Source: Treponema sp. (GTDB taxonomy: Bacteria > Spirochaetota > Spirochaetia > Treponematales > Treponemataceae). Taken from it: DNA of 64,000 nt. The DNA lies in assembly GCA_016281495.1 (NCBI GenBank), contig JAEEIU010000018.1, forward strand, positions 1-64,000, read 5' to 3'. Positions 29,535 through 36,260 of the stretch are shown piece by piece (the stretch's first letter is position 1; each line of letters opens with the position of its first letter). The translations under genes and the position numbers were made by a program. Under the pieces are notes generated by a model, which saw only the letters and a list, made by a program, of their open reading frames with translations, did not search any database and was not told the origin of the DNA.

Positions 29535-30641
29535 ATGGAAATGACATTGCGGTGGTACGGAACCGGTTTTGATTCTGTTACGTTGAAACAGATACGCCAG
29601 ATTCCGGGTGTACACGGTGTTATCACGACTTTATATGATTCTGTTCCAGGAGATGCATGGGAACTTTCTGCAATCCAAAAGATAAAAAAAGAAGTTGAAG
29701 ATGCCGGATTAAAGATTGCCGGAATTGAAAGCGTAAACATTCACGATGACATAAAGATTGGCGGCGGCGACCGTGACAAATATATAGAAAATTACATCAA
29801 GACACTGGAGCACTTGGGACAGGAAGACATCCACATGGTGTGCTACAACTTCATGCCCGTGTTCGACTGGACAAGAAGCGAGCTTGCACGTGTGACTGAG
29901 GACGGTTCAACTGTTCTTGCATACAACTCAAAGGCTGTGGAGGCAATCAAGCCGGAAGAGATGTTCAATTCAATCGACAAGGATTCCAACGGTTTCATTC
30001 TGCCAGGATGGGAACCTGAACGCATGGCACGCGTAAAGGAACTCTTTGCAATGTACAAGGACATCGACAATGAAAAGCTTTTTGAAAATCTGGTTTACTT
30101 CCTCAAGGCAATCATGTCTGTGTGTGACAAATACAACATTGACATGGCGATTCACCCGGATGATCCCGCATGGCCTGTGTTTGGACTTCCACGAATCATT
30201 ACATGTCAGGAAAATGTTGTCCGCATGCTAAAGACAGTGGACAATCCGCATAACGGACTTACATTCTGTACAGGCTCTTACGGAACCAACCGCAAGAACG
30301 ACCTCTGCGAGATGATCAAGGCTGCAAAAGGTCGCATTCACTTTGCACACATCAGGAACCTCCGCTTCAACACAGCGATTGATGATCCCGTTCAGGATTT
30401 CCAGGAGTCGGCACATCTTTCTTCCTGCGGCACTTTCGACATGTTCAAGATTGTACGCACCCTTTACGAAACTGGCTTTGACGGAGTTATCCGACCAGAC
30501 CACGGACGCATGATTTGGGACGAAAAGGCAATGCCTGGTTACGGTTTGTATGACCGTGCTTTGGGTGCAACATATTTACAGGGTCTCTGGGAAGCATGTG
30601 AAAAAATGATTGACCGTAGCGGAGTTGCACTTTATAAGTAG
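29535..30641 (+). CDS. uxuA: Mannonate dehydratase
   Basis: The 368-residue protein begins MEMTLRWYGTGFDSVTLKQIRQIPG, the conserved UxuA opening. It contains IAGIESVNIHDDIKIG and the metal-ligand segments MAIHPDDPAWPVFGLPRI, TFCTGSYG and VIRPDHGRM. It removes water from D-mannonate to give 2-keto-3-deoxygluconate in the cytoplasm, the step between UxuB and KdgK. GTGAGG precedes the ATG. It lies directly behind the transporter genes, and the later pathway genes lie 4-17 kb downstream. Confidence 0.93.
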   Translation: MEMTLRWYGTGFDSVTLKQIRQIPGVHGVITTLYDSVPGDAWELSAIQKIKKEVEDAGLKIAGIESVNIHDDIKIGGGDRDKYIENYIKTLEHLGQEDIHMVCYNFMPVFDWTRSELARVTEDGSTVLAYNSKAVEAIKPEEMFNSIDKDSNGFILPGWEPERMARVKELFAMYKDIDNEKLFENLVYFLKAIMSVCDKYNIDMAIHPDDPAWPVFGLPRIITCQENVVRMLKTVDNPHNGLTFCTGSYGTNRKNDLCEMIKAAKGRIHFAHIRNLRFNTAIDDPVQDFQESAHLSSCGTFDMFKIVRTLYETGFDGVIRPDHGRMIWDEKAMPGYGLYDRALGATYLQGLWEACEKMIDRSGVALYK

Positions 30642-30679
30642 GTGTTGGGGCTGTTGGATTATTCAGCTGGAGAAGAAAA

Positions 30680-31213
30680 ATGATAGTGCTTGTAACCGGG
30701 GCATCCCATACAGGAAAAACTCTGCTTGCACAAAGGATTCTGGAAAAATGCAGCTTTCCTTATCTTTGCATTGACCATTTGAAGATGGGGCTTATCCGAA
30801 GCGGCTGTACAAAACTTACTCCAGAAGATGACGACGAGCTTACGGATTACCTTTGGCCTATAGTCCGTGAGATGATTAAGACTGCAATCGAAAACAAACA
30901 GAACCTTGTTGTGGAAGGCTGCTATATTCCAGCAAATTGGCGTTGTGATTTTGACACACAGTATCTGAATGAAATCCGCTTTGTGTGCCTTGCTTTAAGT
31001 GAATCATTCATATCTCAAAACTTTGACACGATGTGCTCCCATGCCTGTGACATAGAAGATCGTATGGATGACAGCGGCTTTACCCAGGACTTTGTTAAAA
31101 AAGAAAATGCCGCATTCATCAAAAGGTTTACGGAAGCCGGTGAAAAAGTGACCGTAATTGATGAAGCATATGAATCAGTCTTGGATGATGTGGTCAGGCA
31201 TATTGTGAAATAA
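30680..31213 (+). CDS. P-loop kinase-like protein
   Basis: A Walker A motif opens the protein (VTGASHTGKT, residues 5-14). A CIDHLKMG segment follows, then a beta strand ending VVEGCYIPANW, which resembles the Walker B/acceptor region of small-molecule kinases such as 2-phosphoglycerate kinase- or adenylate kinase-like enzymes. At 177 residues it is a single NMP-kinase-sized domain. The substrate is unknown. It lies between uxuA and the HipA-like gene; GGAGAAG precedes the ATG. Confidence 0.7.
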   Translation: MIVLVTGASHTGKTLLAQRILEKCSFPYLCIDHLKMGLIRSGCTKLTPEDDDELTDYLWPIVREMIKTAIENKQNLVVEGCYIPANWRCDFDTQYLNEIRFVCLALSESFISQNFDTMCSHACDIEDRMDDSGFTQDFVKKENAAFIKRFTEAGEKVTVIDEAYESVLDDVVRHIVK

Positions 31214-31214
31214 A

Positions 31215-31346
31215 GAGCCGATAAAATTGGCTGAATCATTCAAGAAATATGAAAAAGAGCCTATAAAATGGTAAAATGAGCCGAAAAATTGCGAAAAATG
31301 CTTGCATTTAATTGCAAATGAGCCTATAATCTGTAAATAGAGGCTC
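31215..31346. promoter_or_regulatory. Helically phased GAGCC operator array before the HipA-like gene
   Basis: GAGCC(T/G)ATAAAAT-type repeats begin at 31215, 31257, 31278 and 31320, with intervals of 42, 21 and 42 bp (four, two and four helical turns). An inverted copy, AGGCTC, starts at 31341, again 21 bp on. GAGCCT (31320) and AGGCTC (31341) form a palindrome enclosing the -10 box. The protein encoded 6 bp downstream ends in its own winged-helix DNA-binding domain, so the array is probably its autoregulatory operator. Confidence 0.7.
31302..31330 (+). promoter_or_regulatory. Promoter of the HipA-like gene, inside the operator array
   Basis: TTGCAT is followed after 17 bp by a perfect TATAAT; the fourth GAGCC repeat abuts the -10. 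The predicted start near 31337 leaves a leader of only about 15 nt, with no Shine-Dalgarno sequence before the ATG at 31352. Confidence 0.65.
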
Positions 31347-31351
31347 AAAAT

Positions 31352-32824
31352 ATGGAATATTTGCTTTACAAGAAAAACATTCCCATCCTCCAGTTTGAAG
31401 AAGACGATGCGCATTACATCACCGCCATAAAAAAGGTGTTCAATGTGCTTCATCTTCCGCCCCATCTTTTTACCGACGGCAAAGCTTCTGCCGAAAACGA
31501 ATATGGCCTCTGTCAAAAACTTGAAGATTTCTTCAACTACCGGATAATTCCCTATTACCGCAGGGGCTTTAGGGAAATGCTTGAGGAACTTGAAATTCAT
31601 TCAGGGGAGGAGCTTGCAAAAAAAAGCTTTTACCTGAGTCTTTCGGATCAGTATTGGGTGTGCCCGCTTGATCAGTTTGGAAAAATCTGGTGGGAGGACA
31701 TTAACTTCTTTGCCAACGAATATGACAGTGCAATCGGACTCAGGCTCATGACGGCATCTGGTGCGCTCAACAAAAATTCCTCTTCATATTCTCCGGACAC
31801 CACGACAGGAGGAGAACTTCCCAAACGCTGGATACGCAGGGATGGCATGAACTATCTTGAAAAGGCCGGTACAGGAACCGAACAGCAGGAACCTTTAAAC
31901 GAAGTACTCGCAAGTGAAATATGCCGCCGCCTCAAAATAGCGCATGTTCCGTATGAGCTGGAAATCCGTGACGAAAACTATTATTGCATTTGCCCTGACA
32001 TCGTGGATCAGAATACGGAAATGGTTCCCCTTGATTCAATCTATCAGGACATTCATCTAAAAGATGGAGTAAAATATGAGTTTGCAAAACTTGTGGAGCG
32101 ATGCGATGCCCTTGGAATCCCAAACGCAGAACAGGACCTGCTAAAAATATTCCTGCTGGATTATATAATCGCAAACGTGGACAGACATTCCTATAACATC
32201 AGCTTCCTGCGCAATTCAGACACTCTGGAGTGGATTGGCGTTGCCCCGGTTTATGACTCAGGAAAATCAATGTTCATCAACAAGCTGGACTTTGAGATAG
32301 AGGCGACATCCTCGTTCAGAATTGGAGCCAAACCGTTTGAAGAAACTCAGGCCGAACAGTTTAAAAATCTCCCCATGGAAAAGATTGCACATCTTGTTGA
32401 TTTTTCTTTGCTAAAGGACATTGCAAAATGGTACAAAAGTTTTCTTGCTCCGTTACGCCGTTTGTCCGATGCAAAAAAAGCCGCCCTGGTAAACGCACTT
32501 GAAGAGCGCATAAATGAGGCAAAGATTCTGCTGGCTCAAAAGCAAAAGGAAAAACAATATTCACTTAAACATGACGGGCCGTTATATGTCGGAGGATATG
32601 AACTGGGGTCAGATCAAAAAACAGTACGCAAGTCAAAACCAAAGTCCGCGGAAATAGTCTACGCATCTCTTGTACAGGACCCCACCCAAACAAAGGAAAT
32701 CCTTTCCGAACGTCTGGGCCTCTCGCGTGCAACCATAACCCGTGCCCTTCAAAAACTCCGTGAAGAAGGCAAAATACTCCGCAATGGTTCCAACAAAACA
32801 GGACGCTGGGAGATTGTGGGGTAA
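31352..32824 (+). CDS. HipA-like Ser/Thr kinase with fused C-terminal HTH
   Basis: The middle of the protein has the HipA kinase signature: the catalytic loop DYIIANVDRHSYN, with Asp277 as probable base, and the metal-binding VYDSGKS segment, with Asp302. Nucleotide-binding residues would lie around 160-185. The N-terminal 130 residues are not the usual HipA N-domain. The C-terminal 65 residues form a winged helix-turn-helix (TQTKEILSERLGLSRATITRALQKLREEGKI). HipA toxins phosphorylate aminoacyl-tRNA synthetases and are held by a separate HTH antitoxin, HipB; no hipB is nearby, so this protein may regulate itself through the array just upstream. Target unknown. Confidence 0.8.
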   Translation: MEYLLYKKNIPILQFEEDDAHYITAIKKVFNVLHLPPHLFTDGKASAENEYGLCQKLEDFFNYRIIPYYRRGFREMLEELEIHSGEELAKKSFYLSLSDQYWVCPLDQFGKIWWEDINFFANEYDSAIGLRLMTASGALNKNSSSYSPDTTTGGELPKRWIRRDGMNYLEKAGTGTEQQEPLNEVLASEICRRLKIAHVPYELEIRDENYYCICPDIVDQNTEMVPLDSIYQDIHLKDGVKYEFAKLVERCDALGIPNAEQDLLKIFLLDYIIANVDRHSYNISFLRNSDTLEWIGVAPVYDSGKSMFINKLDFEIEATSSFRIGAKPFEETQAEQFKNLPMEKIAHLVDFSLLKDIAKWYKSFLAPLRRLSDAKKAALVNALEERINEAKILLAQKQKEKQYSLKHDGPLYVGGYELGSDQKTVRKSKPKSAEIVYASLVQDPTQTKEILSERLGLSRATITRALQKLREEGKILRNGSNKTGRWEIVG

Positions 32825-32845
32825 ATCCTCTTATGGTAAAACAAA

Positions 32846-32874
32846 TAGACCTTTTGAAGTGTCTGTGTTATAAT
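32846..32874 (+). promoter_or_regulatory. Promoter of the lipoprotein gene at 32902
   Basis: TAGACC is followed after 17 bp by a perfect TATAAT, 28 bp before the ATG. Confidence 0.5.
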
Positions 32875-32901
32875 TTTAAAATATAAACCTTGGAGGTGTT
32901 T

Positions 32902-34557
32902 ATGAAAAAAGTTTTGTTTGTGCCGGCACTCATTTTGTGTCTGTTTGTTTCTTGTAAGAAGAATGAGGTTGCGGAAAAGCAGGTGGATGAATCTCCCGCT
33001 CAGATTGTGGAGCCTGTTCAGGCAAGTGCTGAATTGACACAGGAAGAAAAAGACGCGCAAAAAGTTGATCAGATATTGAACGACCCCAACCTGACTGTAT
33101 ATCAAAAAATTGAATCCCTAGGTTATCAGGTAATGGACATGCTAAAGTTCAATTACCGAAAGGAATCTGATGACCTCGTATCATGGCGTGAAAGGGAAGT
33201 CAAATATGACATGAACGACAAAAAAGTTTCAAAGGAAAAACTTATGTCTACTGTCTGGACATTGAACAAAGATGTAGCTGATTCTGTTGTTCTTGTTTTT
33301 TATTCAGATGACTTTTTTGCAATCGGTGACGAAACGTCTGGACCTTCTGCATTCGGTAAATATGATACGGATGGTGGTGTCCTGACTCTTAAATCTTGCA
33401 GTTATGATCCGAGCATAGGCTTTTACAATAAAATCTTTGCCAAGGATGAAGTAATCTGCCGGCTTAACTATACGACCAGGGATTATTATTATGGTAATGA
33501 GCTTCTTTTAAATGGTGTGAAATTTTTCCCTGAAGGTTCTCAAGCTCAAAAGGAAAACGGTGTGTATGCTGATCTTGAAGGATATACGGTTGACGTAATA
33601 AAATCCATGAAAGTGATGAGCGGGAATGTAAAGTTTCATACCAAGCCATCTGCTGATTCAAAAACACAAAACGTAGAAATGTATTCGGAAATGTTCCCCG
33701 AAAAACCTGAGGCTAAAACAGATATGCTTAAACGTGGAACAGTCATCACCACTTATGGATTAATGCACGTCTCTGAAATGATAGATGGAGTACAAGGTCG
33801 ATGGTATTATGTTTCCGTACCCAAAAATGATGGTGAGCAGTACGGCTGGATTTTCGGCGCTTATTTTGTAGATTACGATGCGGCAAGGCAGGTTGAATAT
33901 AAAGAGATTTTGAATGCCGAATTCAATTCATCGCTAAAAGAAGGTTATGATCCATTTGCAAACAAACGCAAATTGGATTTGTCTGATTCCTCAAAGTATA
34001 AAGTACATGACATAGGCCTGTTCATGTTTTTTTCTTACGATGGATTTAACACTAAAGTGTATGATTCGCCTGAGTTGAAAAATGAAATATATACTCTCCA
34101 AAAATGTGATGAAGTAAACTTTACGCGCTATGTCACGGTTATTGCAAGCGGAAAGACGAGTGTTGAAATGGAGACAACTTCCGGTCAATACGGTTTTATA
34201 GAGATGGGAAATCCATATAAAGATGGTCAGTTTGAACATGTTGAAACACTTTCTGTGGATGGAAAAGATGTTGAAGTTCTGACGCTGGATGGATCTTTTG
34301 AAGTGTCTGATGGTATATTCATAAAATCACTGCCCTCGGAAAAATCAGAAAACCTGCATGAAATTACACATGAAGAAGGGGGCCGTTATCATAAAACTTC
34401 TGCAATCACTGCTGACTACAAGTGGGTAAAAATTACTATAGACGAGTGGACAGGATGGGTTCCCGCAGATTCATTGAGCGTAGATAGGGGTGGTCCTATA
34501 ATTGACACTCCGATAAACATGATAGAATGGGAACTTGAAGGGTGTAATCTGATATAG
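32902..34557 (+). CDS. Hypothetical lipoprotein with SH3-like segments
   Basis: The ATG at 32902 behind TGGAGG replaces the TTG of the ORF track. A short signal peptide ends in LFVSC, a lipobox. Three parts of the 551-residue protein resemble bacterial SH3-like folds: about 230-310 (KFHTKPSAD...YYVSVPKNDGEQYGWIFGAYF), about 370-435 (KVYDSPELKNE...GQYGFIEMG) and about 465-535 (FIKSLPSEKSE...KWVKITIDEWTGWVPADSL). SH3b domains often bind peptidoglycan, which would suit an envelope lipoprotein. It has its own promoter, between the HipA-like gene and uxuB. No role is established. Confidence 0.7.
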   Translation: MKKVLFVPALILCLFVSCKKNEVAEKQVDESPAQIVEPVQASAELTQEEKDAQKVDQILNDPNLTVYQKIESLGYQVMDMLKFNYRKESDDLVSWREREVKYDMNDKKVSKEKLMSTVWTLNKDVADSVVLVFYSDDFFAIGDETSGPSAFGKYDTDGGVLTLKSCSYDPSIGFYNKIFAKDEVICRLNYTTRDYYYGNELLLNGVKFFPEGSQAQKENGVYADLEGYTVDVIKSMKVMSGNVKFHTKPSADSKTQNVEMYSEMFPEKPEAKTDMLKRGTVITTYGLMHVSEMIDGVQGRWYYVSVPKNDGEQYGWIFGAYFVDYDAARQVEYKEILNAEFNSSLKEGYDPFANKRKLDLSDSSKYKVHDIGLFMFFSYDGFNTKVYDSPELKNEIYTLQKCDEVNFTRYVTVIASGKTSVEMETTSGQYGFIEMGNPYKDGQFEHVETLSVDGKDVEVLTLDGSFEVSDGIFIKSLPSEKSENLHEITHEEGGRYHKTSAITADYKWVKITIDEWTGWVPADSLSVDRGGPIIDTPINMIEWELEGCNLI

Positions 34558-34596
34558 AAAAAGTGCTGGAAAACTGAAAAAATAGTGGATTTTTTT

Positions 34597-34620
34597 ATAC
34601 TAGTATGCTAGAATACTAGT
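34597..34620. promoter_or_regulatory. Probable GntR operator over the uxuB promoter
   Basis: ATACTAGTATGC is followed directly by CTAGAATACTAGT, giving two overlapping half-palindromes of the same family as the sites at 25706 and 41353. A -10-like TATACT (34596-34601), with CTGAAA 16 bp upstream, overlaps the first site, so binding would block RNA polymerase. Confidence 0.6.
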
Positions 34621-34649
34621 AGGAGAATTTCTGTTATTAGAGGTTGATT

Positions 34650-36260
34650 ATGAAACTTACAGTTGAAGGAATAAAGGACACATCTGATTGGAAGGCCAAG
34701 GGATATTCGCTTCCTGAGTTTGACAGGGAAAAGGTCATGGAGGCTACCAAGGCCAACCCGTTCTGGATTCACTTTGGTGCGGGAAACATTTTCCGTGCGT
34801 TCCAGGCGAATGTTGTTCAGGAACTTTTGAACAAAGGTGTGCTTGACCGTGGTCTTGTGGTTGCAGAAGGATATGACTACGAGATAATCGAAAAGATGTA
34901 CCGTCCCCACGACAACATCGGTGCTCTTGTTACCTTGAAATCAAACGGATCGGTTGAAAAAACTGTGGTCGCTTCGATTATGGAATCGTTGGCTGCCGAC
35001 AGTGCAAACAAAAATGACTGGAACAGGTTGTGTGAGATATTCCGTTCTCCTTCACTTCAGATGGTTACGTTCACAATCACCGAGAAAGGCTATCTCTTAA
35101 AGAATGCAAGCGGAGTGTTCATGCCGGGTGTGGAAGATGATTTTGCTTCGGGTCCTGTTTCGCCAAAGAGTTACATCGGCAAGGTTGTGAGCCTGCTTCA
35201 TGAACGTTATTCAAATAGTACGCTTCCAATCGCAATGGTAAGCATGGACAATTGTTCCCACAACGGAGACAAGCTCAAGGCCGCGGTGACAGAGTTTGCA
35301 TCTGAATGGGAAAAACGTGGCGTGTGCAAGGTTGGATTCCTTGACTATGTGAACGACCGCAGCAAGGTGACATTCCCATGGACGATGATAGATAAGATTA
35401 CTCCACGTCCTGATTCAAAAATAGAAAAGATTCTTTCTGACGATGGCATAGAGCAGCTTGAACCAGTAATCACAAGCAAGAAAACTTATGTTGCTCCATT
35501 TGTAAATGCAGAGGAATGCCAGTATCTTGTTATAGAAGACGCATTTCCCAACGGCCGTCCTGAACTAGAAAAAGCCGGACTATATTTTACCAATCGTGAA
35601 ACCGTGGACAAGGTGGAAAAGATGAAGGTATGCACATGCCTTAATCCACTTCATACATTCCTTGCTGTTAGCGGATGTCTTTTGGGCTACACCCTGATTG
35701 CCGATGAAATGAAGGATGCTGATTTGCTCCGTCTTGTAAAACGCCTTGGCTATGACGAGGGGCTTCCTGTTGTCGTGGATCCAGGAATCATCAAGCCGCG
35801 TGATTTTATTGACGAGGTAGTGAATGTGCGAATCCCCAATCCGTTCATGCCGGATACTCCACAGAGGATTGCCTGTGACACTTCTCAAAAACTTAGCATC
35901 CGTTTTGGCGAGACAATCAAGAGGTATATGGAGCGTTCAGACTTGTCCCTTGAAAACTTGAAGGTGATTCCAATGGTGTTTGCACTGTGGCTCCGTTATC
36001 TTATGGCAGTTGATGATAATGGAAATGCCTTTGAGCTCAGTCCCGATCCGCTTTTGGATGATGTGCGAAAATATGTAGCCGATGTAAAGCTTGGAGGAGA
36101 GGCAGAGTCTGCATGTAAGGCGGTTGAACCCCTGCTTCATCGTGCGGAAATATTCGGTGTGGACCTCGGTGAATGTGGCCTTGAGCAAAAAGTAAAGGAA
36201 TACTTTGCATTGTTGATTGCCTCAAAGGGTGCCGTCCGTTCAGCAATAAAGAATCTTTAG
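34650..36260 (+). CDS. uxuB: D-mannonate oxidoreductase (fructuronate reductase)
   Basis: The ATG at 34650 follows GAGGT and is preferred to the TTG at 34644. The protein belongs to the mannitol-dehydrogenase superfamily: an N-terminal nucleotide-binding part (FWIHFGAGNIFRAFQANV, then VVAEGYD) and a C-terminal catalytic part with CTCLNPLHTFLAV and the Lys/Asn/His region used for the C2 carbonyl. At 537 residues it is the long form common in Firmicutes and spirochaetes. It reduces D-fructuronate to D-mannonate with NADH, between UxaC and UxuA. Its promoter carries the GntR operator. Confidence 0.88.
   Translation: MKLTVEGIKDTSDWKAKGYSLPEFDREKVMEATKANPFWIHFGAGNIFRAFQANVVQELLNKGVLDRGLVVAEGYDYEIIEKMYRPHDNIGALVTLKSNGSVEKTVVASIMESLAADSANKNDWNRLCEIFRSPSLQMVTFTITEKGYLLKNASGVFMPGVEDDFASGPVSPKSYIGKVVSLLHERYSNSTLPIAMVSMDNCSHNGDKLKAAVTEFASEWEKRGVCKVGFLDYVNDRSKVTFPWTMIDKITPRPDSKIEKILSDDGIEQLEPVITSKKTYVAPFVNAEECQYLVIEDAFPNGRPELEKAGLYFTNRETVDKVEKMKVCTCLNPLHTFLAVSGCLLGYTLIADEMKDADLLRLVKRLGYDEGLPVVVDPGIIKPRDFIDEVVNVRIPNPFMPDTPQRIACDTSQKLSIRFGETIKRYMERSDLSLENLKVIPMVFALWLRYLMAVDDNGNAFELSPDPLLDDVRKYVADVKLGGEAESACKAVEPLLHRAEIFGVDLGECGLEQKVKEYFALLIASKGAVRSAIKNL

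Follow-up and report, generated by a model that had tools for sequence, protein, structure and literature searches.

HipA is held inactive by HipB. In the HipBA modules of E. coli and Shewanella, several operators in the promoter are bound cooperatively, with HipA serving as co-repressor (PMC3920265). Single-gene members of the family have also been described: YjjJ/HipH of E. coli is a HipA-family kinase whose own HTH was proposed as a cis antitoxin, and HipL (kinase-HipS-HIRAN) carries a C-terminal DNA-binding domain (both PMC8262856). YjjJ/HipH already combines a HipA kinase and an HTH in a single gene, and the gene reported here is not new in kind. A search of the text of Gerdes et al. (PMC8262856) turned up neither a winged helix nor a C-terminal HTH. 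No paper was found on the DNA motif, the HipA kinases with a fused C-terminal winged helix or the linker repeats treated below, which is weak evidence as only open-licence literature was covered.

The stretch of DNA analyzed here (the window) comprises 64,000 nucleotides of a Treponema sp. contig (JAEEIU010000018.1) and belongs to a draft genome of ~3.2 Mb with one copy of the kinase gene. A gap of 138 bp separates the end of a P-loop gene at 31213 from the ATG of the kinase at 31352, and gap and kinase gene hold the following features.

31215 to 31225, plus strand: operator site 1, GAGCCGATAAA, conserved among homologues
31257 to 31267, plus strand: operator site 2, GAGCCTATAAA, conserved among homologues
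31278 to 31288, plus strand: operator site 3, GAGCCGAAAAA, 21 bp beyond site 2 (this spacing is the best conserved)
31302 to 31307, plus strand: -35 box TTGCAT, 17 bp before TATAAT
31320 to 31330, plus strand: operator site 4, GAGCCTATAAT, with the -10 box inside
31325 to 31330, plus strand: -10 box TATAAT, within operator site 4
31339 to 31343: Shine-Dalgarno-like AGAGG, overlapped by the inverted half-site
31342 to 31346, minus strand: inverted GAGCC half-site (GGCTC), present in part of the homologues only, role uncertain
31352 to 32824, plus strand: HipA-like Ser/Thr kinase of 490 aa, ending in a fused winged helix (wHTH)
about 32645 to 32818, plus strand: the wHTH, residues ~432-488 of the kinase

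The operator sites, which can be written as GAGCCGATAA, lie 42, 21 and 42 bp apart. The four GAGCC copies that an earlier note on this DNA had reported at this spacing were recovered at 31215, 31257, 31278 and 31320, as was its perfect TATAAT (31325-31330) between the site at 31320 and the GGCTC at 31342-31346. The inverted copy, said to follow after another 21 bp, actually starts 22 bp after the fourth site; this distance, the Shine-Dalgarno overlap and its absence from about half of the relatives make it the least secure element of that claim. When the gap itself is modeled as a first-order Markov chain, four GAGCC in 138 bp have a probability of 2e-5, and any GC-rich 5-mer occurring four times in the same gap has one of 0.014 under first-order composition. 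No HTH protein or hipB-like gene adjoins the kinase, in agreement with the earlier note, as the upstream neighbor encodes the P-loop protein and the downstream neighbor a putative lipoprotein. The P-loop gene and the kinase are flanked by uxuA and a mannitol-dehydrogenase-type gene (29535-36260 of the window), a cluster for sugar-acid use. In one relative (L005), the kinase directly follows uxuA without the P-loop gene.

By all features tested, the gene product is a HipA-family kinase. It matched Pfam HipA_C with 2.7e-9 and 37.4 bits (cut-off 30.5), and its C terminus matched HTH_24 with 9e-7. The catalytic loop Asp and Asn (D277 and N282 in ANxDRHxxN) and the metal-binding Asp (D302 in PxxDxG) are invariant in 24 homologues. 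The folds of kinase and wHTH are predictions: the AF2 model was matched by Foldseek to the HipA structures 4pu4 and 3dnv (E ~1e-8, TM 0.5-0.56 by target) and to CtkA (E 1e-8), with the wHTH block modeled at pLDDT 78-92 and the linker at 408-429 disordered. Pfam, AF2 and Foldseek thereby agree on the HipA-like kinase with a C-terminal winged helix that had been read from the sequence. The kinase core also matched PADLOC models of phage-defence candidates (PDC-M03A, E 5e-17).

The kinase is neither a HipBA module nor HipH/YjjJ nor HipL. The HipA kinase fold is common to HipBA, but the window kinase has no hipB and has a C-terminally fused winged helix as its DNA reader; the palindromic TATCCN8GGATA of HipBA is opposed by the direct, asymmetric GAGCCGATAAA. 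In YjjJ/HipH, the HTH is N-terminal instead of C-terminal, and the window kinase reached only 29.9 bits with the NCBIfam YjjJ model, whose cut-off is 401. HipL ends in a HIRAN domain, whereas the window kinase ends in a winged helix and has no HIRAN match. Among solved kinases, CtkA of Helicobacter pylori comes nearest in sequence (E 0.0098) and ranks with the best in fold, but it is a 325-residue chain without wHTH. Regulation is proposed to resemble that of a TA operon under autoregulation, except that the DNA reader is fused to the kinase.

Homologues of the kinase were found by tblastn in 46 of 274 genomes of the same family, and the upstream DNA of each available full-length homologue was examined with its orientation corrected. 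GAGCC(G/T)ATA, usually in 3-6 copies, was present upstream in 20/20 full-length Treponema-family homologues with the fused wHTH, while the array element occurred upstream in 0/28 homologues without this wHTH. This was the check the earlier note had proposed for fused-HTH homologues, and they do keep their upstream repeats. Chance origin of the array is therefore untenable. Two more members of the wHTH kinase clade, truncated at contig ends, also had upstream sites. The consensus of 86 sites, AAAWTGAGCCGATAAA, is longer than GAGCC. Kinases with the wHTH form one clade (55-96% identical) and those without it another, so that the 20 represent one evolutionary association rather than 20 independent ones, and the perfect association within kinases could reflect a single origin. 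Long hairpin leaders lie between array and kinase start in four relatives (L014, L018, L050 and L063; e.g., CCCGTTCTGAAACTTCAGATTCTGAACGGG and AATAACAAAATCCATCCATGGATTTTGTTATT). Three wHTH-less kinases (L028, L029 and L031) lie directly 3' of a gene whose end resembles an ATPase/PD-(D/E)XK protein, a possible two-gene unit.

The 24 distinct spacers between sites measured 21-22, 30-33, 40-44 or 52 bp. A period of 10.25-10.5 bp gave a mean resultant of 0.86-0.87 and a phase near zero (p = 5e-6 against simulated uniform spacings, shared ancestry ignored), and phasing persisted with the period left free between 8 and 13 (p = 2e-4, without ancestry correction). Sites are thus spaced by whole helical turns (about 10.5 bp each), and the 21-bp register is a special case of this rule. 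The helical register suggested earlier thus holds as conserved phasing over whole turns (21, 31-32, 42 and 52 bp), but not as multiples of 21 bp; a strict 21-bp register as a general rule is ruled out by the spacings of 31-32 and 52 bp. The middle pair, the only one to which the 21-bp rule applies, is the most constant feature of the array.

In 20/22 arrays, the best sigma70-type promoter (TTG-N16-18-TATAAT-like) had a GAGCC site between -35 and -10; no TTG-type promoter was found in two arrays (L013 and L440). The last site occupies the promoter spacer in the subclade of the window (TTGCAT-17-TATAAT here, TTGACA or TTGATA in relatives), and the next-to-last does so in the other subclade (TTGATT-17-TATTAT or TATCAT). 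The overlap of site and promoter was retained while its position shifted by one site between subclades. The TTGCAT of the window is a poor -35 match; close relatives have TTGACA, TTGATA, TTGATT or TTGACT.

The best explanation, to which we assign a probability of roughly 0.8, is that a single-gene HipA-family kinase represses its own promoter through its own C-terminal wHTH on the AAAWTGAGCCGATAAA sites. The winged helix would bind these repeated sites, with several kinase copies on one face of the DNA, whole turns apart and probably cooperative. Kinase bound at the site between or over -35 and -10 would block RNA polymerase, and the outcome would be steep negative autoregulation in which the wHTH takes over the DNA-binding job of HipB in cis. 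Binding by the wHTH, repression, cooperativity and a limitation of growth by the kinase are all inferred. The earlier interpretation of a single-protein regulator that reads its own operator is supported on these terms, its DNA binding and toxicity likewise being inferences.

The array is a dedicated autoregulatory operator, with binding and repression inferred, and no other array was found in the genome. Besides the array, the genome of the window contained nine GAGCCKATAWW sites against six for the reversed control, none of them clustered, and a regulon elsewhere in the genome was ruled out with single sites at background. Across the 274 family genomes, paired sites were located upstream of these kinases, inside Fic-wHTH genes (G127 and G251) or, in isolation, within coding sequence (G045, G073 and G101). 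The pair in G084 lies upstream of a kinase cut by the contig end, and that in G234 is probably upstream of a kinase that would lie past the contig end.

Another regulator might bind the array while the fused wHTH serves otherwise; there are no binding data, and data from a single genome cannot identify the binder. This is nonetheless unlikely: among kinases the sites follow the fused wHTH exactly, and the motif also lies beside related wHTH domains on unrelated enzymes in other phyla. Moreover, this genome has only one other A1-type wHTH, on a Fic protein, and it differs in recognition helix, linker repeat and specificity group. Activation, with the wHTH recruiting polymerase from upstream sites, is likewise improbable. 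Phased sites at about -60 to -140 are typical of activators too, and spacing alone cannot tell repression from activation, but the core promoter is overlapped by one site in nearly all arrays, a geometry that usually marks repression.

Treponemes are flagellated, and the sigma28 -10 consensus is GCCGATAA, so the sites could be read as a run of FliA-type -10 elements, i.e., flagellar promoters. The 10-mer is present in a list of FliA promoters (PMC4203485). However, TAAA-N14-16-GCCKATA was properly spaced in 2/22 arrays only, neither the helical spacing nor the GAGC that precedes the -10 part is accounted for, and the motif accompanies wHTH genes in non-flagellated Bacteroidota as well. The sigma28 promoter reading was rejected since the spacing does not fit, and very little credence remains for it. 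The variable copy number (1-6) and the 12-bp tandem copies elsewhere would allow a mobile or tandem repeat in decay, with no part in regulation. This is barely credible, as the sites hardly vary whereas the spacers between them diverge and gain or lose whole turns.

The motif is not confined to kinases, a point the earlier note had overlooked, and it also accompanies related wHTH domains on other enzymes. An A1 profile recovered homologous wHTH domains across Spirochaetota and other phyla, and Fic proteins with a closely related wHTH (SRATVTR helix) have the same DNA motif alongside. When one genome per species was scanned for two copies of TGAGCCGATA, at least 117 loci were obtained, and 29 among those listed hold a wHTH homologous to that of the kinase. 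With a looser form of the pattern, 0/120 viral-contig loci had a homologous wHTH. Phage origin was rejected on the absence of such a wHTH from these 120 matches and on phage and plasmid kinase matches of <40% identity and <=83% query cover.

Two layouts were observed. The first consists of promoter or intergenic arrays, e.g., at the Fic-wHTH genes found in Mucilaginibacter and Parapedobacter, where the sites are spaced by 21+10 or 31 bp. In the second, found in Fic and Schlafen/AlbA genes of several phyla, an in-gene 12-bp tandem, (GAGCCGATAAAT)n, encodes EPINEPIN immediately before the wHTH. Fic-wHTH and SLFN_AlbA_2-HATPase-wHTH proteins share the homologous C-terminal wHTH with the kinase, some of them with GAGCCGATAAAT DNA, but they are other enzymes and their repeats are usually part of the coding linker rather than the promoter. 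The kinase linker has no tandem repeat; its repeats sit in the promoter. AlbA proteins with the SRATVTR helix (L341-L343) had been predicted to carry arrays, and this failed, as they have a single AAATGAGCCTGTAAA before the wHTH. Tandem repeats of four residues (12 bp) directly before the wHTH were seen in Fic and Schlafen/AlbA genes across phyla (L341-L420 and L441-L470). Seven frames of 73-90 aa (L376, L378, L398, L399, L413, L416 and L441) contain only a linker repeat and a wHTH and are orphan cassettes or broken genes.

Loci chosen by the motif are biased toward EPIN, and an unbiased set of 80 wHTH proteins was picked from 296 Spirochaetota genomes by wHTH similarity only. Adjacent units of the linker were identical at >=10/12 positions in 68% of 60 testable genes, against 2.5% after codon shuffling, and the 12-bp period was also present in 23/30 further loci from other genomes. 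Recognition helices went with particular repeats: ATISR with NDTV/NETV, RTIER with VGLN, GVEW with NCGE/KTRE, NMKKL with KITQ/KVTV, and RAVAK with KSSQ. The correlation of helix and repeat (Mantel r = 0.42, p = 2e-4) remained when the rest of the wHTH was accounted for (partial r 0.31, p = 5e-4); relatedness is only partly controlled in both, and the relation partly reflects ancestry.

Codon use within the repeats was constrained, with Thr written as ACT in 20/27 genes (8 expected) and Val as GTA in 17/31 (8.4 expected). Linker and own promoter shared 14-29 bp in 4/60 genes, and the permutation p of 5e-5 rests on these four. The longest is a Schlafen/AlbA gene (L353, G317:C37) whose promoter sequence AATGTCGGTTTGAATGTCGGTTTGAAT is identical to its NVGLNVGLN linker DNA over 29 bp; shorter identities were found in L369 (20 bp), L374 (15) and L344 (14). 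Over 453 bp, through the wHTH and the 3' flank, a Fic gene (L199, 6729-7181) shares 98% identity with an AlbA gene (L286). This identity begins exactly at the first GAGCCGATAAAT, before which the two are unrelated, and judged from this boundary the pair may represent an effector swap at the linker repeat. The linker period, the relation of helix and repeat, codon constraint, promoter sharing and the L199/L286 boundary together favor a role of the repeats as DNA, although they may instead act in the protein or in recombination.

These observations suggest a portable cassette of wHTH plus operator common to different enzymes, with binding inferred. Whether the kinase is an instance of a portable winged helix that moves together with its operator, coded in most carriers as the linker repeat, stands at even odds. 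On this interpretation, the operator lies in the coding repeat before the wHTH, and reader and site would therefore swap together onto new enzymes. The code from helix to repeat would be readable from the genes, and the operator of the Treponema kinases would be the one placed in the promoter.

For the Treponema kinases, the locus offers a testable account of how an orphan HipA-family kinase could be controlled without HipB, by its own wHTH and a phased ladder of operators. If the wider pattern is true, many wHTH enzymes would have the DNA they bind spelled out in their linker, and DNA-binding specificity could be read off that linker. It would also explain why linkers contain 4-residue repeats and why effector domains are exchanged so easily.
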